Origin: Actinopolyspora mortivallis DSM 44261
Lineage (GTDB): Bacteria; Actinomycetota; Actinomycetes; Mycobacteriales; Pseudonocardiaceae
Assembly: GCF_000384035.1 (NCBI RefSeq)
Contig: NZ_KB913024.1
Coordinates: 1,255,655-1,319,654, forward strand
DNA length: 64,000 nucleotides
Reading direction: 5' to 3'
Shown: positions 26,734 to 64,000 of the stretch, piece by piece
How positions within the stretch are numbered: position 1 is the stretch's first letter
How the letters are laid out: each line of letters opens with the position of its first letter
Notes under the pieces: model-generated
Database searches by the model: none
The model's input: only the letters and a program-made list of their open reading frames with translations
What the model was told of the DNA's origin: nothing
Position numbers and translations under genes: made by a program

Positions 26734-26736
26734 CGC

Positions 26737-43798: not shown

Positions 43799-44578
43799 CT
43801 ACCGGTACCTTTCATTCTGATCGCGACGGAAGCTCCACACCACTCCTGCCGTGAAGATCAGTAGCCAGGCGACCAGGTTCACGACGCTCCACCACGGAAC
43901 CTGGCTGCCGACGAACGCTGCGGCGACCAGTTCTCTGGGGCCGCGTGTCGGCATCAGCATCGAGATGGAGTCGAACACGGGTCCCAGCGTCGCGGGCATC
44001 ACGAACAGTCCACCCAGGAATGCAAGCAGGAAGCTGGCCAGGGATATCACCCCGAGAGCGGTCCGCAAACTGAGCGTGTATCCGAACAATGCGCCCAGCA
44101 GGCAGAACGGGATCGTCGTACACAGCAGCGCCAACATTCCCCGGGCGATGGCGCCCGCAGACAGTTGGGCGTCGGTGAACAGTCCTCCGAGAACCAGAAT
44201 CGGGATCGTACCGGCGATCGCGACGACCGTCGTGGCGAAGATCTGTCCGACCGTTCGCGGAAGCGGGCCGGCCGGAAGTGTCCGCAAGAAGACGAACCAC
44301 GCCTCGTGACGCATTTCCGCGACGGTGAAACCGATCTGGAAGACGCATGTCGTGAAGAACGCGAATACGCATAGCTGGGCGACCGCGACGGTCGCGTGCC
44401 GGGGATCCGGAGCTCCGGTCATCTGCGGGAGAACGAAGGCTGCGAACAGAAGTGAGGGGAAGACCAGCGAGGAGATCATGGCGCCGGGGGACCTGACCAG
44501 CTGAGTCATCTCGAACTTGGTGTAGGTTTTGACGAGACGCAGGTCCCGTGTGGCCTCTTCATGAGAAACACTATGCAT
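43799..44578 (-). CDS. ABC-2 type exporter permease
   Basis: A 259-residue integral membrane protein with about six helices (for example MISSLVFPSLLFAAFVLPQM, CVFAFFTTCVFQIGFTV, VVAIAGTIPILVLGGLF, and a C-terminal helix near WSVVNLVAWLLIFTAG), the layout of ABC-2 permeases that export drugs or lipids. Its start overlaps the ATPase gene by 8 bp, so the two form one transporter. In an antibiotic cluster it is the likely product exporter. This assignment is inferred from context. Confidence 0.85.
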   Translation of the reverse strand: MHSVSHEEATRDLRLVKTYTKFEMTQLVRSPGAMISSLVFPSLLFAAFVLPQMTGAPDPRHATVAVAQLCVFAFFTTCVFQIGFTVAEMRHEAWFVFLRTLPAGPLPRTVGQIFATTVVAIAGTIPILVLGGLFTDAQLSAGAIARGMLALLCTTIPFCLLGALFGYTLSLRTALGVISLASFLLAFLGGLFVMPATLGPVFDSISMLMPTRGPRELVAAAFVGSQVPWWSVVNLVAWLLIFTAGVVWSFRRDQNERYR

Positions 44579-45482
44579 CCTGTACCTCCGCTTCGTGTTC
44601 GGATCCCTTCGTGATGGCTATAAAAGCGTCTTCCAGCGAGGCTCGGTCGACGCGCAGCTCGGAGAACGGGATCTCACTGCGGACGATTTCCCGGATGAGT
44701 TCGTCCGAATCGTTCGTGCGTAGTGAGACTTCGTTGTCCTTGCCGACCTTGGGGGCACCGATGAGGGAGGGAAGCGAACGCAACGATATTATGTCCTTTG
44801 TGGTCAGAGTGACCGACTTGGTGGCAAACGTTCCTATGAGATTGAGAGTGGCATCGTCCGCAATCACGCGACCCTTGTCGATGACGACCACTCGTTCCGC
44901 GAGCGCCTCGATCTCTTCGAGGTAGTGGCTCGTGATGATGATGGTGGTACCCGTAGCGTGACGTGTCAGGATCGAGTCCCACATGAGCCGCCGTGATTCC
45001 AGATCGAGTCCTGTAGTCGGTTCGTCGAGCAGAACGAGCTCGGAGTTGCCTACGAAGGCCAGGGCGACCGCCAGGCGGCGTCGCTGTCCTCCTGAGAGGG
45101 CACTGCACCTCCTGGACAGGAATCCGGATAGATCGAACGCCTCGATCAATTCGTCCCGGTCGACGGAATCCCTGAAATGAGCCGAGACCAGGTCGATCGT
45201 CTCGGACACGGACAGCGCCTCGGGAAGGGAGCTCTCCTGCGGTGTTACGCCCAACCGCTCGCGGACGGATCGGTACCGGGGGTTTCCACCCAGGACGTTC
45301 AACGTGCCCGATGTGGGGCGGCGCACGCCCATGAGGAGGCTCAGCAATGTCGATTTTCCGGCACCGTTCGGTCCCAGGAGACCGACGATGGAACCGCGTT
45401 CGACGGTGATCGACAAGTCATCGAGGGCCGTGATGTCGCCGTACCTCTTACCGAGGTGCGAACCACTGATCAGTGGAGTCAC
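44571..45482 (-). CDS. ABC exporter ATP-binding protein
   Basis: A 303-residue ATPase of the DrrA/CcmA type. Walker A GPNGAGKSTL, signature LSGGQRRRLAVAL, Walker B LVLLDEPTTGLD, and switch His in IITSHYLEE are all intact. The C-terminal extension (about 215-303) is typical of antibiotic exporters. The GTG start is at 45482. It overlaps the permease gene and lies 180 bp downstream of the ABC-F gene on the same strand. Confidence 0.92.
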   Translation of the reverse strand: MTPLISGSHLGKRYGDITALDDLSITVERGSIVGLLGPNGAGKSTLLSLLMGVRRPTSGTLNVLGGNPRYRSVRERLGVTPQESSLPEALSVSETIDLVSAHFRDSVDRDELIEAFDLSGFLSRRCSALSGGQRRRLAVALAFVGNSELVLLDEPTTGLDLESRRLMWDSILTRHATGTTIIITSHYLEEIEALAERVVVIDKGRVIADDATLNLIGTFATKSVTLTTKDIISLRSLPSLIGAPKVGKDNEVSLRTNDSDELIREIVRSEIPFSELRVDRASLEDAFIAITKGSEHEAEVQDA

Positions 45483-45662
45483 TCAGCTCTCGCTTTCTTC
45501 AGCTCTAGAAGTGTCCGGACATGCTCGAACGTCGCCGTCCCAGCGATGCCACCGACCGATCCTCGACGCTGGCGCGAAGATGGTCCAGCGATTTTTGCCG
45601 CGACTGGGAGGACGACGTGCAGATCCTTTCCGATCGGTGGGTACGTGCTCCGAAGTACCAGT

Positions 45663-47348
45663 TCATCCCGGAGCTTGATGAGAACCGGTGGCCGCTTCGT
45701 CCCAGATCGGCTCGGGTGCCTCGCGGACCCGGCCGTCGGAGTGGAACACCAGGAATCGATCGAACGAGCGCGCGAACCAGCGGTCGTGGGTCACGGCGAT
45801 GACGGTGCCCTCGAACTGCTCCAGACCGGTCTGGAGCGCTTCGGCAGAGAGAAGGTCGAGGTTGTCCGTGGGTTCGTCGAGCAACAGCAGATTGACGCCC
45901 TCGAACTCCAGCAGCAGGATCTGGAAACGTGCCTGTTGCCCGCCGGAAAGTGTGTCGAACGGACGTTGGGCAGCGTGCACGATGTCGTAACGTGCGAGTG
46001 CACGGCTGGCGTCCTCGCGTGGCATCCCGGAACGACGCTGACCGCCACTGGTGAGCAGTTCCAGCAGCGAGCGCCCGTGGAACTCAGGGTGCTCGTGAGT
46101 CTGCGCGAATATTCCCGGCACCACCCGAGCACCCAAACGCGCGCTGCCTGTGTGTGAGACCGGAGTGAGGGCCTCCTGCTCGAAGAATTCCTGCTGGCCC
46201 TCGCTGCCGCCGCGGGCCAGCAGTCGCAGGAAGTGCGACTTGCCGGTACCGTTGCCACCGAGGACAGCGATCCGCTCGCCGTAGCGAAATTCCGCGTCGA
46301 ACGGTTGGGTCAATTCGTCGAATGCGAGATCTTCGCAGATCACCGCACGCTTACCGGTGCGGCTGCCACGTATTCGCATCTGGACCCGTTGGGTGCGTGG
46401 CACCTCCTCGGGAGGGCCTGCCTCCTCGAAGTGCCGCAGGCGGGTGCGCGCAGCCTGGTAGCGGGCGGACATGTCGTCGTTGTACGAAGCTTTCTGCTTG
46501 AGCTCGTTGACCAACCGCACTAGCTTGGCGCGGTCTTCGTCCCATCGCCGTCGTAGCTCACTGAGTCTGGAAAGACGGTTCTCGCGCGCTTCGTCATAGG
46601 TGGCGAACCCGCCGCCGTGCACCCATACACGGTTTCCCGCTGCGCCTAGCTCGACGGTGATGATGCGACTTGCGGTGCGGTGCAATAGTTCACGGTCGTG
46701 CGTTATGAACAGGACGGTCTTCGAAGTCGTTTGGATCTGCTCTTCCAACCACTCCTTTCCCGGAACGTCCAGATAGTTGTCTGGCTCGTCGAGCAGCAGA
46801 ACTTCGTCCGGCCCGCGCAGGAGGTACTCCAGAGCCAACCGTTTTTGTTGTCCCCCCGAAAGATGTCGCAGCTTGCGGAACCGAAGTCGGTGGTAGGGCA
46901 AGCCGATCGCGGACGTGCAGCACTGGTCCCATTGCGCCTCGGCCTCGTACCCGCCGGCGTCGATGTATTCGACGGTCGCTTCGGCGTAAGTCATCTGGGT
47001 AGCGTCGTCGTCGTACTCGATCAATTGGTTCTCGACCTGATCCAGGTGCTTCGCAGCCGAACGCAGTCGTGGTCCAGACAATGATACCAGCAGATCTTGC
47101 ACAGTCGAGTCATCACGCGCATGACCGATAAATTGGGGCATCACACCGAGTCCGCCAGAGTGGGTCACGGTGCCTTCGCTCGGCTCCATGTCGCCGGCGA
47201 GCAGCCGGAGCAACGTTGTCTTCCCAGCACCGTTCGCCCCGATCAAGGCGGCTTTGACTCCCTCACCCACGCGCAGTGATACGTCGTTGAGCAGCACTCT
47301 TCCGTCCGGTAGCACGTAGTGCACTTTGTGTAGCTGGATGTGTCCCAC
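45663..47348 (-). CDS. ABC-F ribosomal protection ATPase (antibiotic resistance type)
   Basis: A 561-residue soluble protein with two ABC domains and no membrane helices. Walker A motifs are GANGAGKTT and GGNGTGKSH, signatures LSGGQQKR and LSGGQQAR, Walker B LLLDEPDN and LLLDEPTDN. The inter-domain linker (about residues 245-320, rich in Arg, Glu and Lys) is the arm that reaches the ribosomal peptidyl-transferase centre in ABC-F resistance factors. A cluster whose inferred product, amicetin, binds that centre makes self-resistance the probable role. It could instead be a translation-rescue ABC-F. The leader upstream is long and structured. Confidence 0.88.
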   Translation of the reverse strand: MGHIQLHKVHYVLPDGRVLLNDVSLRVGEGVKAALIGANGAGKTTLLRLLAGDMEPSEGTVTHSGGLGVMPQFIGHARDDSTVQDLLVSLSGPRLRSAAKHLDQVENQLIEYDDDATQMTYAEATVEYIDAGGYEAEAQWDQCCTSAIGLPYHRLRFRKLRHLSGGQQKRLALEYLLRGPDEVLLLDEPDNYLDVPGKEWLEEQIQTTSKTVLFITHDRELLHRTASRIITVELGAAGNRVWVHGGGFATYDEARENRLSRLSELRRRWDEDRAKLVRLVNELKQKASYNDDMSARYQAARTRLRHFEEAGPPEEVPRTQRVQMRIRGSRTGKRAVICEDLAFDELTQPFDAEFRYGERIAVLGGNGTGKSHFLRLLARGGSEGQQEFFEQEALTPVSHTGSARLGARVVPGIFAQTHEHPEFHGRSLLELLTSGGQRRSGMPREDASRALARYDIVHAAQRPFDTLSGGQQARFQILLLEFEGVNLLLLDEPTDNLDLLSAEALQTGLEQFEGTVIAVTHDRWFARSFDRFLVFHSDGRVREAPEPIWDEAATGSHQAPG

Positions 47349-47789: not shown

Positions 47790-48590
47790 TCATCGAGCGT
47801 CACTCGGTGAACTCGGCTTGCGCACGGGGTGCGCGGCTTTGTCGAGCTGGTAGTTCCATTCGTCCGCGGAGGCTGACGGCCCGACTATCGTCTTCCCGTT
47901 CCAGAACCGCCACTTGGTGACCGGGGACACGCCGTGCAGCGTGTTTGCCGTCCACACCGCAAGGGTACCGACTTCGTCCAGAGACAACCGGTCTCGCCGG
48001 ATTCGTACTCCGTGCTCGACGGCGACGTTCAGCACGGCCGACACTGTGACGGACTCCAGTGCGGGAAGGACCGGGGTCGGCACGCACAACGCGTCGTCCC
48101 GCCACCACAACACGGCGGAGTGGGCACTTTCCACCACGTAACCCTCTGACGTGCAGAGCACGGCGTCGTCGGCACCCGCCTGCTGTGCTTCCTCCCTCAA
48201 CCCGGTGAGCGCCGGCAGGTCAGGCCCCTTGACGGTCGGCACACTGCGAGGATCCGGAACGCTGGGAACCCAGAGCTCGGTGGTCTCACGCCGCTTCGGT
48301 GCCAACCGAAACTGGACGGCCAAGCCGGTGTCCCATGCCTCGATGCGGGGGAACCATGACCCGGAGGCTGGCGACCGCTCCCGTACCGCAGCCAGGAAGC
48401 AGGTCAACTCGTCGGCCGCGAGCTGTGGAAATCTGTACGAGCAGGCACGTCGGAATCGTCGTTCGTGGTCCTCGAGACCAACCACACCACCGTCGGACAA
48501 CAACCAGGAGTCGACCACGACAGGTTCTGCTTCCGGCCTGCTGCCGTCGACGAGTTCCTGCCCAGTCCACAACATGCTCCGCGCGTTCAA
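47790..48590 (-). CDS. pabC: 4-amino-4-deoxychorismate lyase (PabC-like, class IV PLP)
   Basis: A 266-residue fold-type IV PLP protein. The PLP Lys lies in PTVKGPDLPALTGL, the conserved Glu in CTSEGYVVES, and the C-terminal phosphate-binding region in TANTLHGVSPV. It would eliminate pyruvate from aminodeoxychorismate to give p-aminobenzoate. A branched-chain aminotransferase is the main alternative, but the 4-bp overlap with the aminodeoxychorismate synthase gene makes a lyase far more likely. PABA here probably feeds the antibiotic. Confidence 0.87.
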   Translation of the reverse strand: MNARSMLWTGQELVDGSRPEAEPVVVDSWLLSDGGVVGLEDHERRFRRACSYRFPQLAADELTCFLAAVRERSPASGSWFPRIEAWDTGLAVQFRLAPKRRETTELWVPSVPDPRSVPTVKGPDLPALTGLREEAQQAGADDAVLCTSEGYVVESAHSAVLWWRDDALCVPTPVLPALESVTVSAVLNVAVEHGVRIRRDRLSLDEVGTLAVWTANTLHGVSPVTKWRFWNGKTIVGPSASADEWNYQLDKAAHPVRKPSSPSDAR

Positions 48591-50704
48591 AGGGGTCCCT
48601 CAACGGCCGCTGCCTCCTCGGAGTCTCGTTCCATGCGCTCCTCTCCGACCAGGCGCAGCAATGGAGTCGCCTTGACGCCGGTCTCCTCGTACTCGGCAAC
48701 GGGATCGGACAGCGCGACGATCGCACCTCCCACACCGAACTCCACACCGGATGGCTGTGCGACGACGGTCCTGATTACGATACTGAGGTCGGTGGCTCCG
48801 TTCAGCGAGAAGTAGCCGAGCGCTCCGGAGTACACACCACGCGGTCCGTCTTCCAAGCGGTCGATGATCTGCATGGTGCGGATCTTCGGAGCTCCGGTCA
48901 TCGACCCACCGGGGAATGCCGCCCGTGCGCAGTCCACAGCAGACTTGTTCGGCCTCAGCTGGGCCTGCACGGTGCTGACGAGTTGATGCACCGTCGCGTA
49001 GCTCTCTACGTTGAACAACTTCGGCACCCGTACCGTGCACACTTCGGCACAGGTACTGAGATCGTTGCGCACCAAGTCGACGATCATCAGGTTCTCGGCG
49101 TGATCCTTGATGTTCTCCATCAGGTCACGACGTAACCGCTCATCCTCCTCGACCTCATCGGATCGCGGCCTGGTGCCCTTGATCGGTTTTGACTCGATCT
49201 GCCCGGATGCTGTGACCCGCAGAAACCGCTCCGGAGAACAACTCAGCACGGACAGAGACCCAAGACGAAGCAGTGCGGCGAACGGCGCCGGATTCGCGTT
49301 GCGCAGCTTACGGTATCCCTGCCAGACATCGAGTTCACCGGACGCGCTGATCATATTGGTCAGACATACCTCGTAGGTCTCGCCTGAGTGGATCTCGTTC
49401 TGGCATTCCTCGATCCGCTCCAGATAGGCTTGCCTGTCGTGGCGCAGTTCCGGCGGGCCGAGCGCGGTGATCGCGCCGCTGTATTCTGGGGAGGGGGACT
49501 CCGCAGTGAGCTGGTAAAGCCGTGCTGCTGTGTGTTGGAGCCAGCGGAGCATCTCGTCGTCGTGTTTGGTGCCCGACAGCGCGAGTAGGTGGATCTGCCT
49601 CTCCTGGTGGTCGAACGCGATCGCTCGGTCGGCGAAGATGAACGCCGCGTCCGGATACGAGGAGTCGTACACGCGCTCACCACCGCACTCGGCCTTGAGC
49701 TCGTACCCGAGGTATCCGACCCATCCGAGTGCGAAGTCGAAGGGAAGGTTTCGAGTGACGACTCGATGTGCGCGGATGTCCGCGTCGAGCCAGTCGAAGA
49801 AGGAGTCGTGTACGGTCTCCACACCGTGGTCGTCCACGACCGTGATGGTTCCGGTAGAAACATCCGCCTCGACCGTCCGGGCAAGCGGACCGCTTGCGTC
49901 TCCCATGAAGGAGAACCGCCCGCGTTCGGCATCGTACTGGCTACTGTCCAGCCAGAATGCGTGCTCTGAGTCGCGGTATAGCTTGTCGTAGACTTGTTCC
50001 GGAGCCAGGTCCAGGTCGAACACCCGATGGTGCAGCCCCAGCTGTGGTTTCGGCTGAGTCGCGAGGTCATTGGTTTCGCTCGCCCGATCCGGGCCAGCAT
50101 CAGACGGGTGCGGTCGGTGTTTCTGATTCCACCGTTCGGCCAGCCGCACGAAATTCGCGAGGAGCTTGTGACCGTGTTCGGAACGGATCGATTCCGGATG
50201 GAACTGCACACCCCACTGGGGCAGGCTGCGGTGCCGCACGGCCATCACGACGCCGTCCGGAGTCCAACCTATCGGCTCGATGCCCGTGGGAAGCCGGTCG
50301 GTGACGAGGGAATGGTAGCGCACCACATCGAACGGTGACGGGATGTCATCGAACAGTTCCCTTCCGTCATGGACCACCTCGGACACGCGCCCGTGGTACG
50401 CCTCCGGTGCGAAAATGACGTCGCCACCGTGAAAGTAGCAGATACCCTGGTGTCCGAGGCAGACACCTAGCACCGGCAGCTGCGCCGCACGGATGATCTC
50501 CGTACACCAGCCGAAGTCGACCGGGCGGTCCGGCCGACCCGGTCCGGGCGAGAGGATCACGCAGTCGAACCGGGACAACTCCGCCAGCGACCACTCGGGA
50601 GTGTCATTGAGGATCACCGTTGGTTCGCAACCGGTCACCTCGGCGACGTAATGTACAAGATTATAGGTAAAGGAGTCGTAGTTGTCAACTATGAGAGTAC
50701 GCAC
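48587..50704 (-). CDS. pabAB: Fused aminodeoxychorismate synthase (PabA-PabB)
   Basis: A 705-residue fusion. Residues 1-190 are a class I glutamine amidotransferase (Cys in GVCLGHQGICY, His-Glu in VQFHPES). Residues 230-690 are the chorismate-binding synthase domain, with Lys in SKPIKGTRPRS (the PIKGT Lys marks aminodeoxychorismate rather than anthranilate synthases) and PGGSMTGAPKIRTMQIID. It makes 4-amino-4-deoxychorismate, which the coupled PabC-like protein turns into PABA. Such fusions are typical of secondary-metabolite PABA supply (candicidin, amicetin). Confidence 0.93.
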   Translation of the reverse strand: MRTLIVDNYDSFTYNLVHYVAEVTGCEPTVILNDTPEWSLAELSRFDCVILSPGPGRPDRPVDFGWCTEIIRAAQLPVLGVCLGHQGICYFHGGDVIFAPEAYHGRVSEVVHDGRELFDDIPSPFDVVRYHSLVTDRLPTGIEPIGWTPDGVVMAVRHRSLPQWGVQFHPESIRSEHGHKLLANFVRLAERWNQKHRPHPSDAGPDRASETNDLATQPKPQLGLHHRVFDLDLAPEQVYDKLYRDSEHAFWLDSSQYDAERGRFSFMGDASGPLARTVEADVSTGTITVVDDHGVETVHDSFFDWLDADIRAHRVVTRNLPFDFALGWVGYLGYELKAECGGERVYDSSYPDAAFIFADRAIAFDHQERQIHLLALSGTKHDDEMLRWLQHTAARLYQLTAESPSPEYSGAITALGPPELRHDRQAYLERIEECQNEIHSGETYEVCLTNMISASGELDVWQGYRKLRNANPAPFAALLRLGSLSVLSCSPERFLRVTASGQIESKPIKGTRPRSDEVEEDERLRRDLMENIKDHAENLMIVDLVRNDLSTCAEVCTVRVPKLFNVESYATVHQLVSTVQAQLRPNKSAVDCARAAFPGGSMTGAPKIRTMQIIDRLEDGPRGVYSGALGYFSLNGATDLSIVIRTVVAQPSGVEFGVGGAIVALSDPVAEYEETGVKATPLLRLVGEERMERDSEEAAAVEGPL

Positions 50705-50857
50705 AGAACACCTCGGATGACAGATTGCTTAACACGGCCCGGAAAAAGTGGAAACGCGATGTGCGTCCGCACCACTCGCGTCCCTGTTCGACGGTGATGT
50801 CGGGAAGACAGCCGGCCGGGGGAAGCTCGTTGAACGGCCGGTTATTTTTCTGTTCGT

Positions 50858-51397
50858 TCACCGGCGGGCGTGAGCGTGGCGATGTCTCAGTCGGCGGATA
50901 TGCTCCGAGTGTTTCCCGGGTGATTGCGCGCTGCCCGGTTCTTGCGTGAAGCGCGACATTACTGTTGCGCTGAATGGTCCCGCTGGAGCGGGTTCAAGTG
51001 CAACACCGCGAACGGTGCCGGCCCGTGCCACTGCATTACCCCCAGTGTGCGGTAGCGTCGAATTAACCAATAGCTGTCCCCAGTTCGGAAAGACAAATTT
51101 GAGGCGAGTGTAGCACACGACGAGCACTTTCCGTTGTTCCTGACTGCAGAATGCTCCTACTCGTAAGTTGGGAGCATAGATGCTTTCAGGTGACTCGTTG
51201 GTGAATTTCTTCACGTCGCGCTCAGCCGCTTTGATGCTCGAGAAGAAGTTTGTCTGGTGTTTTACCTCCGGATCCGGACCTTGTTCTTCGGGGAGCATAT
51301 CGGAGTCCGGCTTGGACAGCAACACCATCTTTGTTGTGCGTCGAGTGACATAAATCATGTAGTCTGCATTTTCGTTTTTAGGGTCATGAAAAACCAA
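50858..51397 (-). CDS. Hypothetical protein, uncertain
   Basis: A 179-codon open frame whose first 115 residues have a balanced, low-GC codon pattern and plausible protein composition (alternating Lys/Glu and hydrophobic residues, for example MIYVTRRTTKMVLLSK and AAERDVKKFTNESPESIY). The last 60 residues look like Arg/His-rich noncoding translation, so a real gene might be shorter or frameshifted. I recognise no domain. It lies in the 1.6-kb gap between the two divergent arms of the cluster, where a regulator might be expected. Confidence 0.33.
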   Translation of the reverse strand: MVFHDPKNENADYMIYVTRRTTKMVLLSKPDSDMLPEEQGPDPEVKHQTNFFSSIKAAERDVKKFTNESPESIYAPNLRVGAFCSQEQRKVLVVCYTRLKFVFPNWGQLLVNSTLPHTGGNAVARAGTVRGVALEPAPAGPFSATVMSRFTQEPGSAQSPGKHSEHIRRLRHRHAHARR

Positions 51398-51718
51398 GTG
51401 ACCATCGTGTTGGAAGAGCGCCCCTGCTTGCTCAGTCTGGTGTCATGTTTTCGCCGCTCAAAGCGGGTTCTCGTGTCCGGCTGGGGTGCGGGTTTAGCAA
51501 GATCCTGATTTGCCGGACACGTCGTGACGACTGCATGTTCTCTCCTTTTGGGGCAGCGGTGCCTGCCCCAAAAATATTAATCTCTCCTCCAAACGTGTGA
51601 ACCCTTCCTCTGAACGTACGATCTGATCCTCCCGTCCGCCCGCTGTATAATTCTCCGCTGCGGACTTTCCCCGTCAGTGTTCTGAAATGAACCCGCAGGT
51701 CGGGGAAGCGGGGGGTGT

Positions 51719-52340: not shown

Positions 52341-53287
<947 letters not shown>

Positions 53288-53383
53288 CAGTCACGCCGAA
53301 AGCGCAGTCCAATTCGTAGCTTGTGCACAGCGCGGTGGCCAGCACGCCACCGCACCACAGTACTGAAGAAGAGCCGGAAAACC

Positions 53384-55257: not shown

Positions 55258-56157
55258 ATGGCTACAGGTATTGTCTTCGGTCCCGCTGACGCGACTGCTG
55301 ACTTCCTGCGATACGCGCCGATGGTGGAGAGCTCAGAGACAGCTCAGTCCGTCTACCGCGAGGTGGCCGCAGCATCCGGGGTCGAGGTCGACCAGCTCCT
55401 GGCGCGGCCGGCGCCCCATGTCGGTGCTGTTGTGCTACGTTCGTTGAGACAGATGGCTGCCATGTTGAGCATCGCCAAGATCCTCGAAGCCGATTTCGGT
55501 CGTGCGCAGGTCTACGGTGGCATCTCCCTGGGTGAACTCGCCGCGCTGCACATGGCGGGTGCTGCCTCGGTCGAGATGGTTGTGGACCTGCTCCGGGTCC
55601 GCCACCTGCCCGATACCTCGCTGGACGAGGCCATCTGCTTCACGTTTGTACCGACGCTCGACGACTGGAGGTACTACGACGATGTGGACAGCATGTCCGT
55701 ATCGGTCGACTACGGTCCTGTCTTCGATGGTACTGGAAGGATGATCATGCTCTCCGGGCTGCGCTCCACCCTGGAATCGATGCGGACCGCAGGGCCTGCG
55801 GAACTACAAGTAGTTGATCGGGACATGGCGGATCAGGCATATCACTCACCTTTTCGGGAGCCTGGACGACGGCGACTCAGTTCGTTCCTGGTTGAAAACC
55901 CTCTTAGCGACCCCATGGCCCCGGTGCTCACTGCGGTTCCCGGTCTTCAAAAGGCATCCACCGGTGGTAAAGCGACCGAAGCTCTCCTGAAAAGTGAAAC
56001 CCACCCTCTCTCGGTTCCCGTTTTGGTAGAGGGAGTGGAGAAATTCGGACTGGATAAGGTGCACGCCGTCAGCTCCTTCCTGGGGGAACTGCGGATTCGA
56101 TTCGGGGCCCCGACGGACTACTACGGCGATCGCTGGTTGGCATACAGGTTCGGCTGA
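55258..56157 (+). CDS. Malonyl-CoA:ACP transacylase-like acyltransferase
   Basis: A 299-residue FabD-fold protein with nucleophile Ser90 in YGGISLGELAAL (GXSXG), an Arg in LLRVRHLP, and catalytic His in AYHSPFREPG. The sequence is far from true FabD, and no polyketide synthase is present. In amicetin biosynthesis a transacylase of this class (AmiR) is needed to attach the terminal methylserine. With the carrier didomain next door, it probably moves an aminoacyl group from carrier protein to the PABA amine. GAGGA lies directly against the ATG. Confidence 0.8.
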   Translation: MATGIVFGPADATADFLRYAPMVESSETAQSVYREVAAASGVEVDQLLARPAPHVGAVVLRSLRQMAAMLSIAKILEADFGRAQVYGGISLGELAALHMAGAASVEMVVDLLRVRHLPDTSLDEAICFTFVPTLDDWRYYDDVDSMSVSVDYGPVFDGTGRMIMLSGLRSTLESMRTAGPAELQVVDRDMADQAYHSPFREPGRRRLSSFLVENPLSDPMAPVLTAVPGLQKASTGGKATEALLKSETHPLSVPVLVEGVEKFGLDKVHAVSSFLGELRIRFGAPTDYYGDRWLAYRFG

Positions 56158-56170: not shown

Positions 56171-58003
56171 GTGGCTTCGCGGTTCAATACTTTCAAGGCG
56201 GTTTCGAAGTTGCAGCGACAGCAGAGTCATGAGTCGAGCGATCAGCCCACCCCCGATCTGCTCGATCGCATTATCCGGAATGCCGATCAATTTCCGGACC
56301 GCGTGGTGATCGAGAGTGACGGCAGCCACATCAGCTACCGGCAGCTGATGCAGATCGCCGAACGATTCAGAGTGGAACTCGCCGCCTCCGGTGTGCGCGC
56401 CGGCGACGGCGTCGGTGTGCACCAGAGACGAACACCCGAACTGATCGCCAGTCTGCTCGCTGTCCTCGCGTTGGGAGCGCACTTCATTCCGCTGGATCCT
56501 AAGCAACCGCGGGCGCGACTCCGACGCTTCATGACCCTGAGTCGTCCCAGGTTGGTCATGTGCGATCCGAATCATCAAGACCTGGGCCGTGAGCTGGGCG
56601 AACCAATGCTCGTCAGCCACGCCTCCCCCGAGGCAGGGGCCGCGACGTTGCGCGCTGAACGCCCCCGTGCGGACGCGCTCGGCTACGTGCTGTTCACCAG
56701 CGGATCCACGGGCGCACCGAAGGGGGTGGAAGTTTTCAGAAGATCCATGTCGACGTTGTTTGACAGCATGACCGATCGGCTGGGGCTCGGTTCCGACGAC
56801 ATCGTTCTCGCGCACAGCACAGTGGGCTTCGACATGTCGATCCCCGAGCTGTTCTTACCTTTGACGCTCGGCGCACGGATGGTCCTGGCTACCTCCGAGC
56901 AGTCCGGGAGTCCGCAGAAACTGCTTCCGCTGCTCCGTGACGTCACATTCATGCAGGCGACACCGACGATTTGGAAGATCCTGCTAGCCCTCGGGATGGA
57001 CCGCACCGACGGACTGACCGCCGTAACCGGCGGTGAATCCATCGACATGGCTGCTGTACGAGAGCTCCTGGAGGCGGTGGAGACGTTGTGGAACTTCTAT
57101 GGTCCCACCGAGGCGACCGTCTGGGTTTCGTGTCAGCAGCTCAGCCCGAACACGTCCTACGCGCCGTTGGGAGACCCGTTCGCGGACACCCGACTTTCGA
57201 TCACGAACGATTCTGCGGACGATGTAGGTGAACTGGTCATCTCGGGCAGCTTGGTCGCCCGGGGCTACTGCGGTGAGGACAGTACCGAGGTCGGCGCGTT
57301 CGGCACCGATGACCGGGGCGTTCGTTCCTACGCGACGGGGGACCTCGTCAGAAGACATGGTGACGGAAGCCTTGAATGGGAGTCGCGAAAAGATGAACTC
57401 ACGAAGGTTCGCGGTAACCGCGTTTCTTTGTCCGAGATCTCCGCTGCTTTGGAGGATCTCCCGGAGGTGCGCAATGCCTTGGTGGTCCAGCGAACACTCG
57501 CTAAAGACGATGAACCGGCGCTCGTTGCTTACGTCGTGTCTGCGCTGGAGGTCCAGTTGGACTTCTCGGAGATCAAAAGAATGCTGGGTACGGCCCTGCC
57601 TTCCTACATGCTTCCCGACCGCTACTGCCAGCTCGACGAAATTCCGCTCCTTCCCAGCGGGAAGCTAGACCGTTCCGCCCTGCCAACGCCCGCGCCGGAG
57701 GAGCCCGGTGACCGGGAAACAGGAGGTGGGGGAGCTGCTTCGGGGAGTGGGAACGGCGAATTCGACCAACATCTTCTGAATACGGTGCTCTACGTGTTCC
57801 GGAAAGTTCTCCGAGTAGACGATCTTTCGCTGGATGGCGACTTTTTTGATCTGGGTGGAACGTCGGCGCTGGCTGCAGTTGTGGCGGGGCTGCTCGGTCG
57901 AACTATCGGAAGAACAGTGGAAATCAGGGAAGTTCATGATTTCAGGACAGCCCGGCAGATGACTCTACACCTGATGGAAGAGCGATCTGATGTGCGGGAG
58001 TAG
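56171..58003 (+). CDS. NRPS adenylation-carrier protein didomain
   Basis: A 610-residue stand-alone loading module. Adenylation domain (about residues 25-515): A3 LFTSGSTGAPKGVEV, A4 GFDMSIPELFLPL, A5 WNFYGPTEATVW, A7 YATGDLVRRH, A10 PLLPSGKLDRS. Carrier domain (about 535-605) with the phosphopantetheine Ser in DLGGTSALAA. No condensation or thioesterase domain, so acyl transfer must be done in trans, fitting the transacylase gene 13 bp upstream. My hand-aligned pocket reads D-M-P-Q-V-G-F-V-W, matching no common code; alpha-methylserine is the context-based guess. The GTG start has a weak ribosome site. Confidence 0.88.
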   Translation: MASRFNTFKAVSKLQRQQSHESSDQPTPDLLDRIIRNADQFPDRVVIESDGSHISYRQLMQIAERFRVELAASGVRAGDGVGVHQRRTPELIASLLAVLALGAHFIPLDPKQPRARLRRFMTLSRPRLVMCDPNHQDLGRELGEPMLVSHASPEAGAATLRAERPRADALGYVLFTSGSTGAPKGVEVFRRSMSTLFDSMTDRLGLGSDDIVLAHSTVGFDMSIPELFLPLTLGARMVLATSEQSGSPQKLLPLLRDVTFMQATPTIWKILLALGMDRTDGLTAVTGGESIDMAAVRELLEAVETLWNFYGPTEATVWVSCQQLSPNTSYAPLGDPFADTRLSITNDSADDVGELVISGSLVARGYCGEDSTEVGAFGTDDRGVRSYATGDLVRRHGDGSLEWESRKDELTKVRGNRVSLSEISAALEDLPEVRNALVVQRTLAKDDEPALVAYVVSALEVQLDFSEIKRMLGTALPSYMLPDRYCQLDEIPLLPSGKLDRSALPTPAPEEPGDRETGGGGAASGSGNGEFDQHLLNTVLYVFRKVLRVDDLSLDGDFFDLGGTSALAAVVAGLLGRTIGRTVEIREVHDFRTARQMTLHLMEERSDVRE

Positions 58004-58205
58004 CATCTTTTGGGTGCTGTTCTGCGGGCTAAGGCGAGTTTTTCGTCGGACTTCCTGAACGAGGGGAGAGCTCGCCACAGCAGCTTTGATCGTTGGTGGA
58101 GCGTTGGACGAGCGTCCCGGTCGGGTCGAACGGTTCGGTCAAGACCTCGTACTGGCGAATAATGACGAACATGTAGTCGGTAGGCACTGCGGAGGCAAGG
58201 CCGAA

Positions 58206-59324
58206 ATGCAACACGATTCGAAAATCAACAATGTTCAGATGTACCGACCTCGGGTAGCACCATCCGCGTTGGATCGGCTGCGGCATGTACTTGATTCGGG
58301 GTGGATCGGCCTCGGGCCAGTGACGGAGGAGTTCGAGAACGAGCTGCAAAGGCCTGAGCTGATCGGAAAGAACCCGGTTCTCGTGAATTCGGGAACGGCG
58401 GCGTTGCACCTGGCTTTGGTGGCGGGTGGGGTGCGGAAGGGATCGGCGGTAATCGTCTCCGCCAACACCTTCGTATCGACTGCGGCCGTCGTGCTCTTCC
58501 ACCAATGTCGCGTCATCATCGCCGATGTCGAGCGTGTTACTGGAAATATCGATCCTGATTCAGTGCGGAGTATTATCGAGAGCACCCCCGACGTCAGCGC
58601 CGTGATCGTCGTCCACTACTCTGGGATTCCCTGCGACGTGGCCGCTCTGTCCGAGATCGTCGGAAAGTACGGGGCCGTCGTAATCGAAGACTGCGCGCAC
58701 GCCGTCGGTTCGATCTGGAACGGGCATCCGCTGAGCGCGTCTCCTAACATTCAAGCGTACTCGTTCCATGCAACCAAGGCGCTCGCCGTCGGTGAAGGGG
58801 GGTGCGTCACTTTCCCGGACGCCGAGTCCGCCGATCGCGCGCGACGTCTTCGAAGGCTCGGTATCGACATGTCGACGAGATCGTGGGGAAACCCGTACGA
58901 TATTCCTGAACTCGGATTCAAATACAACATGGGAGATGTCGCGGCCGCGATCGGTATGGCTCAGCTCGAGAACTTGCCGAGCGAGCTCGACAAGCGCCAG
59001 TCCATTATGTGGCGATATCGTGAGCGATTGGCGGATTCACCTGTCGAGCTTGTCCGCGAACGTGACTCCACCGATCGGTCCGGAGGATTCGCGGTTCCGG
59101 CTCTGGTTCCGGAGCGCGATCGTGTTCGGAAAGAGATGGACTCTTACGGGATCGGAACGGAGATTTATTTCAAGCCGTTGAATTCGTTCTCGATCGATTG
59201 CACGGGGACAGCTCCCGTCGCTGACCGTTTTGCCAGTGATGTTATTTGTCTGCCGATTCATCCTTCGATCGACTTCGACTCCGTGGACTATGTCTGCGAT
59301 CGGCTTCTGGAAGCCGTGGCATGA
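58206..59324 (+). CDS. DegT/DnrJ/EryC1 sugar aminotransferase
   Basis: A 372-residue PLP enzyme that would add an amino group to a keto-deoxysugar nucleotide. The PLP Lys is in AYSFHATKALAVGEGG, so it is a true aminotransferase and not a His-type dehydrase; VNSGTAALHLALVAGG and EDCAHAVGS are the other family blocks. A 4-aminotransferase making the precursor of amosamine is the best fit for an amicetin-type product. The ATG at 58206 has GGAGG 10 bases upstream; an open frame extends back to 58086 without support. Confidence 0.88.
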   Translation: MQHDSKINNVQMYRPRVAPSALDRLRHVLDSGWIGLGPVTEEFENELQRPELIGKNPVLVNSGTAALHLALVAGGVRKGSAVIVSANTFVSTAAVVLFHQCRVIIADVERVTGNIDPDSVRSIIESTPDVSAVIVVHYSGIPCDVAALSEIVGKYGAVVIEDCAHAVGSIWNGHPLSASPNIQAYSFHATKALAVGEGGCVTFPDAESADRARRLRRLGIDMSTRSWGNPYDIPELGFKYNMGDVAAAIGMAQLENLPSELDKRQSIMWRYRERLADSPVELVRERDSTDRSGGFAVPALVPERDRVRKEMDSYGIGTEIYFKPLNSFSIDCTGTAPVADRFASDVICLPIHPSIDFDSVDYVCDRLLEAVA

Positions 59325-59673: not shown

Positions 59674-59683
59674 ATGCGTGTGA
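59546..59683 (+). CDS. Small ORF overlapping the dehydratase start, doubtful
   Basis: A 45-residue frame (MWEGISRTYLVENVSMAGRR at the start, a basic and aromatic C-terminal half) running 10 bases into the 2,3-dehydratase gene in another frame. A run of G at 59536-59540 might serve as ribosome site. Composition is plausible for a small basic protein, but nothing is recognised. Confidence 0.25.
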   Translation: MWEGISRTYLVENVSMAGRRNKKMIFDFPERMRGYFTTGWELACV

Positions 59684-61017
59684 TCGATACGGTGGCGGAG
59701 TTACGGTCGGAGTGCCAACGGCGTCGCAACAAGCTAGAGGCGCGCGTTCTGCCGATACCGCTATCGGACCTGCGTTATTGGTCGATGACTGAAGAAGGCT
59801 CCCTGTCCCATCACACAGGACGTTTCTTTCGCGTCATAGGTGCGCGAGTCGAGGACCCCTCGGGGTCGGGAAGGATGCTCGAACAACCGATAGTCGATCA
59901 GCCGGAGGTAGGAGTTCTGTGCCTGTTCGTGACGGTCATCGAGGGCTCATATCACGGTCTGGTCACGTTCAAGTTTGAGCCGGGCACTCCGGACGGTATT
60001 GAGGTGGCCCCGAGCGTTCAGGCGACTCGGAGCAACTACGAGGCAGCGCACGGCGGTGCGCACGTGTCTGCGGTTGGTCTCGCGTTATCGGAGACCTGCA
60101 CGACACTCGCCGACACCGTGCAACGTGAGCAGGAGGCGTGGTTCCTCGGGAAGGTCAATCGCAACCGCATCGTCCTGCTCGACGCCGACGATGCCGACAG
60201 CGTTAATTCGTCGATTCCGGACAGCTATTGGGTGCCGATCCCCGCATTGCTCGCGGGGACGCTCCAAAGCCGACTGATCAATATGGATTTGCGTTCGGTG
60301 CTGTCGATGTGGCCATTGGATGCCCTCCCCGGAATCGGGGGCGACTCCGAACCTGCTGGGCGTACGCCGACCGTACCAACCCCAGACCCAGGGCCGGATG
60401 AGCACGTCGAGCGAGACGAGACGCTGGGCACCAGTCCCGAGCTGGTACCGCTGGACAGCTTGCTGAACTGGGAGCTGTCCGACAGCCTCGAACACCGGTA
60501 CCGTCGGTTTTTCGCGATTGTGGGATGCCGGGTCGAGGGACAGAACCGCGAGAAGGAATCGTGGGACCAGCCGCTTCTCGCTCCCATGGGCATGGGGCAG
60601 TGCTCTCTTCTCCTGCGCACTGGCGAAAAGGGCCTCGAAATGCTGGTGGCCGAACGAGTTCGTATTGGTTCGGTCCAGGGGCCGACGCTCGAACCTACGC
60701 ACCAGCGAGGCGACGTAGCGGATTACACGACAGCAGCCCGTCGCGTATCGATGGTGGCGGAAGCGGCTGATCTCGTGGATTGTGGCAGCGTCTACTCCGT
60801 CGTGCACGCGGAGGAGGGGGGGAGATTCAGAGGTGCCATAGTCTCTTACCAGATAGGTTTCCTCGTTGACGAGGGAGTTCACGAACGAGCCGGTCGGTGG
60901 GTTCCTCTGGAAGAAATAGAATCCCTAAACCGGAACGGGAACTACCTCAGCGTCGAACTTCGCACAAGTCTTGTGATGCTGAAAGGTATCGTCTCGGCGG
61001 AAAGTATCGAGGCATGA
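59674..61017 (+). CDS. NDP-hexose 2,3-dehydratase
   Basis: A 447-residue protein with two tandem Nudix-like repeats, the layout of TylX3/EvaA enzymes that remove the C-2 hydroxyl from NDP-4-keto-6-deoxyglucose. Repeat one (about 25-210) has GRFFRVIGARV, FKFEPGTPDGIEVAPSVQAT and a terminal YWVPIPALL. Repeat two (about 265-440) has YRRFFAIVGCRVEG, SWDQPLLAPM, and GRWVPLEEIESL. The unstable diketo product must be taken by a ketoreductase, whose gene overlaps by 4 bp. Together they begin 2-deoxysugar formation (amicetose type). Confidence 0.9.
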   Translation: MRVIDTVAELRSECQRRRNKLEARVLPIPLSDLRYWSMTEEGSLSHHTGRFFRVIGARVEDPSGSGRMLEQPIVDQPEVGVLCLFVTVIEGSYHGLVTFKFEPGTPDGIEVAPSVQATRSNYEAAHGGAHVSAVGLALSETCTTLADTVQREQEAWFLGKVNRNRIVLLDADDADSVNSSIPDSYWVPIPALLAGTLQSRLINMDLRSVLSMWPLDALPGIGGDSEPAGRTPTVPTPDPGPDEHVERDETLGTSPELVPLDSLLNWELSDSLEHRYRRFFAIVGCRVEGQNREKESWDQPLLAPMGMGQCSLLLRTGEKGLEMLVAERVRIGSVQGPTLEPTHQRGDVADYTTAARRVSMVAEAADLVDCGSVYSVVHAEEGGRFRGAIVSYQIGFLVDEGVHERAGRWVPLEEIESLNRNGNYLSVELRTSLVMLKGIVSAESIEA

Positions 61018-61994
61018 TCGCAGCAATCGGTAACTCCGAGTATCTGGGGCGTCGGATCGCGCCTATCCTTCAGGAATTGAACGGTTCTGCCGGACCGGTC
61101 CTCGTGGGCACGGACCACCCGGTCGACCTTCGCTTCGATGCGGGAGCGGATCAGCTCGCGACCGTCGACCGCGTGGCAGTGCTCACCGCTACGGATGTCG
61201 ACGCCGTCTATGTTTCCAGCGCGACCGGACGCCACTTCGATGATTGCCGGGCAGTGCTGGCCGCAGACAAAGACGTTTTCGTGGAAAAGCCGATCTGTCT
61301 CCGCTCGAGTGAGGTCGTCGAATTGGATCGGATGGCCCGAGAGCGTAATCGAACGGTTTTCGAGTGCCTTTCGTACCCGTACCATCCGGTCTGGAGTGAA
61401 TTCGTCGGTCGCGTGAGGACAACGGACTGGGCAGCGAATACGACAGTATCAGCTGCGTTCCGCATCCCCGGCCGAAACTCGACGGACTTCCGCATGGCGC
61501 CGGAGCACGGCGGAGCTGCCGCTGACTTGGGGACCTACTGCATCGACGCATTAGTGCGGCTCGGTGCTTCCGCGGACGGGATCCGAGTCGGCAAGATGCT
61601 CATGGGAGCTCCGACGAATGACTGCGGTTTCGCGATAGCGGGTTCGGACACGGGAAAACGTAATTCGAATTATGGGGGACTGTGGGCGATCGAAGACGAG
61701 TACGCGAACAGTGTTGTCGTTGCGGACGGCTATCGAAGAATCGAGCTGCATCGAGCTTTCACGCCTCCGCCGGAAACCGTCGGTCGTGTGGTCGAGCGCA
61801 CGCGGGACGATCCTGAACCGTCTGTGGTGGTCACAACCGAGCCGGCTACGTCGAGCAGAGCGTGTCTGGCTGCGGGCAGCCGCTACAGACGAGACGAAAT
61901 GGTATCCGGGGTGGTGGACAGAGAGGCCATCATTCGACGGGTTGCGGCCCTGGAGGAAATAGCTGCCGCGCACGACAAGGCTCCGCCGATGTGA
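61014..61994 (+). CDS. NDP-hexose 3-ketoreductase (Gfo/Idh/MocA family)
   Basis: A 326-residue NAD(P)H-dependent oxidoreductase. The Rossmann start MIAAIGNSEYLGRRIAPIL resembles sugar 3-ketoreductases (CADIAxRR type), the EKP motif is VFVEKPICL, and the sugar-binding GGAAADLGTYCIDAL segment carries the catalytic Tyr. It would reduce the 3-keto group made by the 2,3-dehydratase. The ATG overlaps the dehydratase stop codon (ATGA), setting the start; an open frame back to 60897 is within the dehydratase gene. Confidence 0.87.
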   Translation: MIAAIGNSEYLGRRIAPILQELNGSAGPVLVGTDHPVDLRFDAGADQLATVDRVAVLTATDVDAVYVSSATGRHFDDCRAVLAADKDVFVEKPICLRSSEVVELDRMARERNRTVFECLSYPYHPVWSEFVGRVRTTDWAANTTVSAAFRIPGRNSTDFRMAPEHGGAAADLGTYCIDALVRLGASADGIRVGKMLMGAPTNDCGFAIAGSDTGKRNSNYGGLWAIEDEYANSVVVADGYRRIELHRAFTPPPETVGRVVERTRDDPEPSVVVTTEPATSSRACLAAGSRYRRDEMVSGVVDREAIIRRVAALEEIAAAHDKAPPM

Positions 61995-62144: not shown

Positions 62145-63563
62145 TTGAGTACTCAGTTCAGTGACCACAACAAGAAACTTTCGGACCTCGAGGAATCGGC
62201 AGTTCTGTCGATCCGGGACGCCACATCCGAGGATCGAGAGGCAGTCCGGGCCCTTCTGCACGGTACGCTCCGGCGCAACTACGACGGTGACCACATTGCC
62301 CAGGCGGACCGCATCCTGGATGCGCACCTGGCGGGTGGAAAGGACGCCGTTGGACACTTTTCGCTGACACAGCGGGTTTTCGTAGCTATGTTGGGTGATG
62401 ACCTCATTGGCGTGATGAACATCGCAGAGAAGCGACAAGGAACGATGAAGATCAGTCCGCTCATCATCAATCCGGATTACAGGGGTGCCAACGGTGCTGG
62501 CAGTTCCCTGCTCGACAAGGCCTTGGAAGTCGCCCAGGCGCGTGGTGTGCGCCAGTTGTACGGCACCGTGGCAGAGTCCAGCTCCTGGATAGAGACCTTT
62601 TACCTGAACCGTGGTTGGACATGCGGTTCGCAGGCGGACAGCCAGTACCGCCCGGGTGTTATCGAGCACGCGATTTACATCAACGTTGATGACGACATCA
62701 GCGCGTATGAGGAGAAACTGGAGTTCGAGGAGTACTCACCGGAGAAGTACGAGGAACTTAACGACTTCCTGCTGGAGCACATGCCGGCGTTCGCGGACGG
62801 GATCGACACCGAGTTCGTCCAAGCGCTGGTGGCCGGTCAGGAGCGCAAGCGGGAGCGCGTGGTTGAGCAGAAGTACAAGGAGGTCTACCTCGGGTACGAG
62901 GGCGGTGTGTTGAGCTCTGTCGTCGCGTTCGGCCCGAAGAAGGGTGGCTCGGTCAAGCTCATGCCGCTCTGCGCCGTCTCACGGGGAGCGATGCAGGAGA
63001 CTCTCAGGTTCGCGCAGGAGTGGGCGACCGGACGCACTTATAAGCTTTACACGCACCAGCCAGTCGACGCGGCTACGGTAACGGCGTTCGAGGACGAGAT
63101 GTGGACGCTGGAGGGGTTGCTCCCAGGGGCGTATGGGGAGGGAAAGGTCGCCGCACAGTGGGGTTGGCTTTCCAACGAGACGACGCACCTCGGGCGCAAG
63201 ACGGATCGCCTCAAGGCTTACAGCGAGAGGTTGTTGGCGTTCACCCAGGCGCGCGGGTGGGATGAACTCGAGGATGCTCGGAGTCTGTCGATGGCGATCG
63301 GTGGCGAGGCGGGAGAACTCCTGGCCGAGCTCCAGTGGCTGAGCAGTGATGAAGTTCTGGATCGGTTGGAGAACGATTCCGGGTTCAAGAAGTCGGTCTC
63401 GTTCGAGGTGGCGGATATTCTAAACTACCTGATCCGTTTTTCACGGCACTGCGGATTCGACTTGATCGAAGCCGCCGACAAGAAGCTCGCGGTCAACATA
63501 GACCGATTTCCGGTGGACAAGGTCTACGGTTTAAAGGGGAAGACTTACAAGGCGAGTGAATAA
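62145..63563 (+). CDS. GNAT acyltransferase fused to a MazG-like pyrophosphohydrolase
   Basis: A 472-residue fusion. The N-terminal GNAT domain (about 20-160) has the CoA loop IINPDYRGANGAGSSLLDKA; a second, GNAT-like region spans about 180-340. The C-terminal domain (about 375-472) is all-helical MazG/dCTPase-like, with ExxE in GGEAGELLAELQW and ExxD in EVADILNYLIRF. The GNAT part is the candidate amide synthetase, as an N-acetyltransferase (AmiF) joins PABA to cytosine in amicetin. The MazG part might turn CTP or dCTP into monophosphate. The TTG at 62145 has GGAGAG 7 bases upstream; a far ATG at 62025 lacks support. Confidence 0.82.
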   Translation: MSTQFSDHNKKLSDLEESAVLSIRDATSEDREAVRALLHGTLRRNYDGDHIAQADRILDAHLAGGKDAVGHFSLTQRVFVAMLGDDLIGVMNIAEKRQGTMKISPLIINPDYRGANGAGSSLLDKALEVAQARGVRQLYGTVAESSSWIETFYLNRGWTCGSQADSQYRPGVIEHAIYINVDDDISAYEEKLEFEEYSPEKYEELNDFLLEHMPAFADGIDTEFVQALVAGQERKRERVVEQKYKEVYLGYEGGVLSSVVAFGPKKGGSVKLMPLCAVSRGAMQETLRFAQEWATGRTYKLYTHQPVDAATVTAFEDEMWTLEGLLPGAYGEGKVAAQWGWLSNETTHLGRKTDRLKAYSERLLAFTQARGWDELEDARSLSMAIGGEAGELLAELQWLSSDEVLDRLENDSGFKKSVSFEVADILNYLIRFSRHCGFDLIEAADKKLAVNIDRFPVDKVYGLKGKTYKASE

Positions 63564-63705: not shown

Positions 63706-63732
63706 CGGTGACCGTGATGAGCGTGGTCACCG
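63706..63732 (+). promoter_or_regulatory. Hairpin upstream of the glycosyltransferase gene
   Basis: An 8-bp inverted repeat (63706-63713 with 63725-63732, 11-base loop) ends 34 bp before the glycosyltransferase start. It could be a weak terminator after the GNAT-MazG gene or a leader structure. Confidence 0.35.
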
Positions 63733-63765
63733 AATACGGCCGCTCCTATTGAGGTGTCAACACGA

Positions 63766-64000
63766 GTGAATATCCTGTTCGTGTGCAGTGTCTACTATCC
63801 GATCACCGGCGGGGCACAGGACCCGATCGACCAGTTGGGGAACGTGCTCGCCTCCCGGGGGCACCGTGTCGACGTTCTGACACGACACGCTCCTGATACG
63901 ACTCCCAAACTGGAGCAGCGCAACGGAATCTGGATTCATCGCATAGGTAACGCGGTGCTCCCATCGGACTTCCGGAGGACGCCTGCGGAGCTTCGATTGC
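63766..64000 (+). CDS. GT4 family glycosyltransferase, N-terminal part (partial)
   Basis: Seventy-eight residues before the window ends. The start MNILFVCSVYYPITGGAQ, with GNVLASRGHRVDVLTR, is the N-terminal Rossmann half of GT-B fold family 4 enzymes. In this cluster it could form the disaccharide link or the sugar-cytosine bond. GTG 63766 is preferred because GAGGTG (63751-63756) is well spaced from it; GTG 63754 is in frame and would add four residues. Confidence 0.8.
   Translation, partial: MNILFVCSVYYPITGGAQDPIDQLGNVLASRGHRVDVLTRHAPDTTPKLEQRNGIWIHRIGNAVLPSDFRRTPAELRL

Follow-up and report, generated by a model that had tools for sequence, protein, structure and literature searches.

Amicetin-type nucleosides are antibiotics that block the ribosome, and the amicetin (ami) cluster reportedly consists of 21 genes, as Zhang is said to have described in 2012. 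Amicetin is listed in MIBiG as BGC0000953 (PMC11677201). Oxamicetin, the product of Arthrobacter oxamicetus, bears alpha-methylserine. Cytosylglucuronate (CGA) synthase and cytidine monophosphate (CMP) hydrolase occur in the blasticidin and mildiomycin pathways as well. The p-aminobenzoic acid (PABA) arm of amicetin is thought to confer bacterial selectivity over blasticidin S (excerpt of PMC12856912), and one study considers the methylserine cap important for antimycobacterial activity (excerpt of PMC4278220). Activity is also noted, in a section of a review (PMC12339860), for mavintramycin A, which has no PABA group.

Here, a 64,000-nucleotide stretch of the Actinopolyspora mortivallis DSM 44261 genome (contig NZ_KB913024.1, positions 1255655-1319654), referred to as the window, was analyzed together with the 36 kb that follow it (100 kb in total; all later coordinates are in window numbering). 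The source genome is 4.23 Mb in one contig and is 99.97% complete. A preliminary description of the window had proposed an amicetin-type disaccharide nucleoside cluster outside its usual setting, which would make amicetin, bamicetin or a new relative. Our sequence comparisons indicate that the cluster is a near-complete amicetin-type gene set in an actinomycete that is not a Streptomyces, and the locus very probably specifies an amicetin-type disaccharide nucleoside pathway. Of the proposed products, the new relative is favored. The chances are roughly even that it combines two changes, predicted by analogy with ami: an inner 2,6-dideoxy sugar with the 3-hydroxyl group retained, and an aminoacyl cap that is not alpha-methylserine.

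To compare the clusters gene by gene, the Streptomyces sedi JCM 16909 cluster (NZ_VDGT01000001.1) was used, with S. sindenensis, S. inusitatus JCM 4988 and S. camponoticapitis completing a set of four. The 21 S. sedi genes run in the order lyase, aminotransferase, 2,3-dehydratase, Gfo/Idh, rmlA, GNAT, glycosyltransferase family 4 (GT4), methyltransferase, CMP-hydrolase-like, cytosine glycosyltransferase, 4-ketoreductase, ligase, PabAB, RfbH, ABC-F, TetR, major facilitator superfamily (MFS) exporter, transacylase, serine hydroxymethyltransferase (SHMT), adenylation-carrier didomain (A-PCP) and rmlB. The preliminary description assigns amiF, amiL and amiR to the GNAT, ligase and transacylase genes. 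An excerpt of PMC7040171 gives amiA as the lyase and first gene and amiP as TetR. The S. sedi lyase, GNAT, ligase, TetR and transacylase genes stand at places 1, 6, 12, 16 and 18, which correspond to the letters A, F, L, P and R, and the other letters were assigned from the S. sedi gene order.

Close counterparts of 13 of the 21 S. sedi genes were found (45-71% identity), and nine of these (B, C, D, F, G, H, I, J and K) are collinear with S. sedi. Another four agree in predicted function with their S. sedi equivalents but are distant (E 34%, T 32%, U 42%) or without a BLAST match (A), the window lyase and the S. sedi AmiA-like lyase giving no match at E 1e-5 or at E 1e-3. The last four, N (RfbH), P (TetR), Q (MFS) and S (SHMT), have no counterpart in the 100 kb. 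The preliminary description had held that its reading would be refuted if the best matches of the ligase, transacylase and GNAT all fell in unrelated pathways; instead, their counterparts (55%, 54% and 70% identical) lie inside one Streptomyces ami-type cluster. Cytosine-handling genes, whose absence downstream it had likewise counted as a refutation, were found just beyond 64 kb in the form of a CMP-hydrolase-like and a CGA-synthase-like gene.

The cluster consists of 20 genes (43799-71363), all of which are open, with no internal stops in an open reading frame check. Its right end, at 71.36 kb in the extended sequence, is beyond the window, and seven genes, the glycosyltransferase included, are wholly or mostly beyond 64 kb. 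Each gene type listed in the preliminary description, from PABA synthase to exporter, was confirmed as an open reading frame, with the window holding only the start of the glycosyltransferase gene; the list had left out the ABC-F gene (45663-47348, minus strand) and the MazG-like C-terminus of the GNAT. The gene types are backed by Pfam or NCBIfam, except for the transacylase, which was assigned by identity to its Streptomyces counterparts. In the following lines, percentages are identities to S. sedi unless stated otherwise.

43799-44578, minus strand: ABC-2 permease (Pfam ABC2_membrane, E 1.9e-7)
44571-45482, minus strand: ABC-2 exporter ATPase (ABC_tran, E 4.2e-32; best NCBIfam match the DrrA subfamily, under cut-off)
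45663-47348, minus strand: ABC-F protein, AmiO-like (ribosomal-protection-like ABC-F, E 8.6e-74, under cut-off; 62%)
47790-48590, minus strand: aminodeoxychorismate-lyase-like protein, a PabC-like PABA lyase (Aminotran_4, E 1.1e-23)
48587-50704, minus strand: fused PabA-PabB, AmiM-like (chorismate-binding, E 2.8e-87; GATase, E 2e-47; TIGR00553 over cut-off; 45%)
52334-53287, plus strand: rmlA, glucose-1-phosphate thymidylyltransferase (TIGR01207 over cut-off; 34% to AmiE-like)
53321-54937, plus strand: PABA-CoA-ligase-like (benzoate-CoA-ligase-like) protein, AmiL-like (TIGR02262, E 1.3e-59, under cut-off; 55%)
55258-56157, plus strand: transacylase, AmiR-like (54%; 54-59% to the four Streptomyces counterparts)
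56171-58003, plus strand: A-PCP at the place of AmiT (Pfam; carrier serine in GGTS)
58086-59324, plus strand: 4-aminotransferase for amosamine, AmiB-like (DegT, E 8e-84; 71%; TK motif with the pyridoxal phosphate (PLP) lysine retained)
59674-61017, plus strand: NDP-hexose 2,3-dehydratase, AmiC-like (PF03559, E 8.4e-74; 60%)
61008-61994, plus strand: Gfo/Idh 3-ketoreductase, AmiD-like (PF01408, E 1.3e-11; 57%)
62145-63563, plus strand: AmiF-like GNAT amide synthase with a C-terminal MazG/dCTP-pyrophosphatase-like domain (GNAT and MazG-like matches, the latter under the Pfam cut-off; 70%)
63754-65244, plus strand: GT4 glycosyltransferase, AmiG-like (Glycos_transf_1, E 4.5e-34; 67%)
65258-66010: methyltransferase, AmiH-like (55%)
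66007-66552: CMP-hydrolase-like protein, letter I (67%)
66552-67751: cytosine glycosyltransferase, CGA-synthase-like, letter J (63%)
67766-68731: 4-ketoreductase, letter K (51%)
68940-69905: rmlB, letter U (42%)
70083-71363: class II 3-deoxy-D-arabino-heptulosonate 7-phosphate (DAHP) synthase (NCBIfam, 395.1 bits, cut-off 614.7)

The start of the ligase is ambiguous (53321 or near 53381), as is that of the Gfo/Idh gene, whose longest frame begins at 60897. The transacylase matched no Pfam model and the NCBIfam MdcH model weakly (E 2.3e-4), and its GGISLG and YHSP motifs are retained. Dedicated PABA synthesis is represented by PabAB and the lyase (Pfam, NCBIfam), and the DAHP synthase at the cluster end probably raises the chorismate supply for PABA. 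The ABC-2 pair is probably the exporter, in place of the S. sedi MFS exporter, and the ABC-F protein probably protects the producer's own ribosomes. The divergent pabAB and rmlA genes are separated by 1.6 kb (50705-52333, 56% G+C), in which two short frames matched nothing in Pfam; this gap is perhaps a regulatory region.

In terms of cytosine handling, a search of the 66007-66552 product against solved structures (E 0.001) gave six distinct matching sequences (E 1.7e-12 to 1.4e-7), all of which are named Blasticidin M (best E 1.7e-12), CMP N-glycosidase (3.5e-9) or CMP/hydroxymethyl-CMP hydrolase (1.5e-8). We take these solved relatives to be BlsM and MilB-type enzymes. The 66552-67751 product scored 234.9 bits (E 1.6e-69) against the cytosylglucuronate synthase model TIGR04467, under the cut-off of 300 that marks an equivalog-level CGA synthase of blasticidin/mildiomycin-type nucleosides; such a score may be expected if the enzyme takes a deoxysugar rather than glucuronate. 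When 392 sampled Streptomyces genomes were searched with this protein, 15 matched, one at 63% (S. sedi) and the other 14 at 30-38%, and its identity to the four ami-type Streptomyces copies is 59-64%. The 70% identity of the AmiF-like GNAT to its S. sedi counterpart extends over 471 aligned residues and includes the MazG-like domain. Four of the five solved relatives listed for that domain are dCTP pyrophosphatase 1/RS21-C6, and we infer that it converts CTP or dCTP to the monophosphate, feeding the CMP hydrolase.

To judge the inner sugar, the 3-dehydrase was considered. The RfbH proteins of S. sedi and Rhodococcus exceed the RfbH cut-off and, as read by eye, have HHIT at the PLP-lysine site of the aminotransferases. 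A search for an RfbH-type 3-dehydrase found none, neither in the 100 kb nor elsewhere in the source genome (E 1e-5). The S. sedi RfbH matched two regions of the genome (30-33% identity over 193 and 130 residues); one is the aminotransferase of the cluster, the other a further DegT-like protein, in which lysine occupies that site, and within the 100 kb the cluster aminotransferase is the sole match (24%). The E1/SpnQ chemistry of the RfbH family performs 3-deoxygenation toward trideoxy sugars. Because no such enzyme was found, the inner sugar is predicted to be 2,6-dideoxy, not 2,3,6-trideoxy. In the S. inusitatus genome, the best match to RfbH (E 3.3e-24, 35% over 217 residues) was not of the RfbH type, and its ami-type cluster without RfbH marks this strain as a candidate oxamicetin-like producer.

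An AmiS-type SHMT was likewise not found in the 100 kb or in the whole source genome. A single SHMT was found in the genome. Its gene adjoins gcvT, identified by the presence of both glycine-cleavage T-protein domains, and the protein shares 79-81% identity with one copy each in S. sindenensis, S. inusitatus and S. camponoticapitis but 47-48% with the four cluster copies. It is taken to be the housekeeping GlyA because of the adjoining gcvT and these close copies in three of the four Streptomyces. Further SHMT copies at 47-49% occur in S. sindenensis and S. inusitatus. Identity of the A-PCP to the four Streptomyces AmiT-like proteins is 30-33%, compared with 61-70% among those four, and the A-PCP is without their N-terminal extension. 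Ten pocket positions of the adenylation domain were placed by motifs and read off alignment columns, giving DMPQVGFVWK for the window, DMYNMGLIHK for S. sedi, DMYNLGLIHK for S. sindenensis, DMYNMGLVHK for S. inusitatus and DMYNLGLIHK for S. camponoticapitis. The window pocket thus differs from three of these at 6 of 10 positions and from S. inusitatus at 5 of 10. The nearest common code is that of glycine, DILQLGLIWK. These pockets hint weakly at glycine as the substrate, and they argue more strongly for a substrate that differs from that of the Streptomyces AmiT-like proteins.

The pathway was assembled from the presence, non-detection and similarity of genes, with every reaction assigned by analogy with ami. 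In the AmiF-like protein, the MazG-like domain would aid the supply of CMP, from which the CMP-hydrolase-like enzyme would liberate cytosine. TDP-4-keto-6-deoxyglucose would be formed through rmlA and rmlB, and part of it would be converted by the 2,3-dehydratase, the Gfo/Idh reductase and the 4-ketoreductase to a 2,6-dideoxyhexose, in which the 3-hydroxyl should be retained because no 3-dehydrase was found. The CGA-synthase-like enzyme would couple this sugar to cytosine. The other part would become amosamine via the DegT aminotransferase and the methyltransferase and would be attached by the AmiG-type GT4; these genes are all present (71%, 55% and 67% identity, respectively). PABA from the DAHP synthase, PabAB and the lyase would be activated by the ligase and linked to cytosine N4 by the GNAT, after which the A-PCP may load, in place of alpha-methylserine, another amino acid, perhaps glycine, for transfer to the PABA amine by the transacylase. 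The ABC-2 pair would export the product, and the ABC-F protein would protect the ribosome. A glycyl-capped version would perhaps be C27H38N6O9, with a predicted [M+H]+ of 591.277.

Several points weigh against this reading. The S. sedi cluster served as a stand-in for the ami cluster of S. vinaceusdrappus, and the profile scores of the ligase, ABC-F, CGA-synthase-like and MazG-like sequences are under curated cut-offs. The RfbH search is blind to a 3-dehydrase of another family, and the RfbH gap is not special to the window, being shared by S. inusitatus. The AmiA-like lyase also had no match in the S. inusitatus stretches examined, so that this gap is not window-specific either. With respect to the cap, S. 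sedi has no SHMT copy above 49% identity to the source-genome SHMT (47-49% only), the alpha-methylserine could be supplied by GlyA or an unrelated enzyme, and the window pocket is identical to the glycine code at only 5 of 10 positions.

Three alternatives keep the pathway type and differ in its exact product. In oxamicetin (3-hydroxy-amicetin) proper, the 3-hydroxyl would be kept and an alpha-methylserine cap would be made by the housekeeping GlyA and a divergent A-PCP. The conserved transacylase (54-59%) agrees with this, as does the placement of GlyA in the same SHMT family as AmiS, and in S. inusitatus RfbH is missing yet the SHMT and AmiT-like genes are kept, an example of RfbH loss alongside methylserine genes; however, a cluster-borne SHMT occurs in 4 of 4 Streptomyces relatives and none was found here, and the differences in the adenylation pocket (6 of 10 positions, 5 of 10 for S. 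inusitatus) also stand against it, leaving oxamicetin unlikely. A plicacetin-type end point, with the A-PCP and transacylase as relics or used elsewhere, would fit an A-PCP that is not an AmiT orthologue. Uncapped compounds are normal products, as papR2 expression in Streptomyces sp. SHP22-7 raised plicacetin, not amicetin (excerpt of PMC7040171). Since the A-PCP and transacylase genes are adjacent and open, with the carrier serine and the Ser/His motifs, such an end point is distinctly improbable. The 13 close ami counterparts would suit amicetin or bamicetin themselves, but these are the least probable of the alternatives because the RfbH-type 3-dehydrase and the AmiS-type SHMT were not found anywhere in a 99.97%-complete genome.

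The remaining alternative is another kind of cytosine nucleoside, resembling blasticidin or cytosaminomycin, whose sugar genes were borrowed. In its favor, the blasticidin and mildiomycin pathways also have a CGA synthase and a CMP hydrolase. Cytosaminomycin D, moreover, has tiglic acid on PABA (excerpt of PMC4278220). This product is nonetheless very improbable, given that AmiF-, AmiG- and AmiL-like genes are clustered together with PABA genes and that the CGA-synthase-like protein is far closer to the four ami-type copies (59-64%) than to those of the 14 other Streptomyces (30-38%).

The reading in which the retained hydroxyl and the changed cap occur jointly also predicts that the pathway lineage branches outside the four sampled Streptomyces. 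A tree of seven concatenated proteins, in which the Rhodococcus cluster is a far, very long branch, separated the window from the four Streptomyces with a support of 0.999, the S. sedi branch being nearest to the split. Identities are 51-74% between the window and Streptomyces and 66-88% among Streptomyces. Judged by this split and these identities, the window cluster is a separate branch and not a recent copy. The proposed setting outside Streptomyces was borne out, as S. sedi and its congeners share only the class with the source genome.

A search of 298 sampled genomes of the order with the GNAT half of AmiF matched 1, namely the source genome, and 0 of 6 congeners listed. A scan of named genomes with the AmiF alignment returned four loci, all Streptomyces; it used two peptide patterns, which miss diverged copies, on a collection that possibly left out the source genome. 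No loci were returned when the cytosine glycosyltransferase was the only query in a scan of named genomes. Matches to AmiF in 75 of 394 genomes of the class were dropped as AmiF relatives, as all but the source genome matched at the MazG-like end only (query from residue 321). The G+C content is 60.1% in the island, 69.9% in window positions 1-40000 and 65.4% at 76.0-100.0 kb. Its borders include the following features.

40240-40327, plus strand: tRNA-Leu(gag), by ARAGORN, at the left edge of the island
40457-40801, plus strand: left copy of a 345-bp direct repeat, 95.4% identical to the right copy at 72014-72358 (blastn)
40844-41242, plus strand: tyrosine-recombinase remnant adjoining the tRNA-Leu (Phage_integrase, E 3.1e-4, under cut-off)

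An open relative is located at about 89.5-90.2 kb (E 5.4e-14). The cluster looks like an acquired island because of the low G+C content, the flanking repeats, the integrase traces, the tRNA edge and the absence in relatives. The tRNA-Leu was considered as the attachment site, but no second copy of its 3' end was found within 100 kb. In the extension, 13098-13787 of piece L003 encodes a Sco1979-type regulator truncated at its N-terminus (the profile match begins at position 91), and an HTH-DUF5753 regulator gene adjoins the S. sedi cluster. To the right of the island (about 74.2-86.1 kb; L003 14173-18792 and L004 3547-6141) are genes for a PCMT-type methyltransferase and a LanC-like protein, followed by Cas1 and Cas3 of a CRISPR-Cas locus. 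A reading of 74-86 kb as a cluster for a ribosomally synthesized and post-translationally modified peptide with a LanB-like protein was partly wrong, as the 83.5-86.1 kb gene encodes Cas3.

Among the papers listed for oxamicetin, none, judged by title, is on its genes, and an amicetin cluster outside Streptomyces was not found in the titles or abstract openings listed, the subscription texts being mostly beyond reach. A dehydratase primer set has been used to screen for the amicetin cluster (excerpt of PMC4058248). An Amycolatopsis-related paper was dismissed as a non-Streptomyces lead, as amicetin appears only in a reference title in the available part (PMC10599150). The product of the window cluster is probably an undescribed or oxamicetin-like relative of amicetin, and the cluster supports a pathway branch outside Streptomyces. 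A natural cap swap with a retained sugar hydroxyl would provide ready-made enzymes for new analogues, and the pathway offers a direct test of the genes that set the cap and the inner sugar.

Related clusters differ from the window in various ways. The cluster on plasmid p1 of Rhodococcus sp. 2G (NZ_CP018064.1) is like the window in having an AmiF-like GNAT (30%), aminotransferase (61%), 2,3-dehydratase (55%), ABC-F (52%) and GT4 (44%), along with methyltransferase, CMP-hydrolase-like and CGA-synthase-like genes, but unlike it in having RfbH. In the 41-kb p1 stretch, no match was found at E 1e-5 to the window PABA synthase, lyase, ligase, transacylase, A-PCP or 4-ketoreductase, and the product may be a PABA-free cytosine disaccharide. 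This cluster (15212-31493 of the stretch) is close to a tyrosine recombinase and two transposases. The S. inusitatus JCM 4988 cluster is without RfbH, like the window, but unlike it retains the SHMT, AmiT-like, TetR and MFS genes, while S. camponoticapitis has its transacylase, SHMT, A-PCP and rmlB at the opposite cluster end compared with S. sedi. Oxamicetin shares the 3-hydroxyl of the inner sugar with the predicted window product, and its alpha-methylserine is the difference. In comparison with the ami-type cluster of S. sedi and others, the window has in common the core B, C, D, F-M, O and R (sugar path, both glycosyltransferases, CMP-hydrolase-like protein, PABA synthase, ligase, GNAT, transacylase and ABC-F), whereas the DAHP synthase and the ABC-2 exporter are extra, the PABA, ABC-F and export genes are on the opposite strand, and the host is not a Streptomyces.

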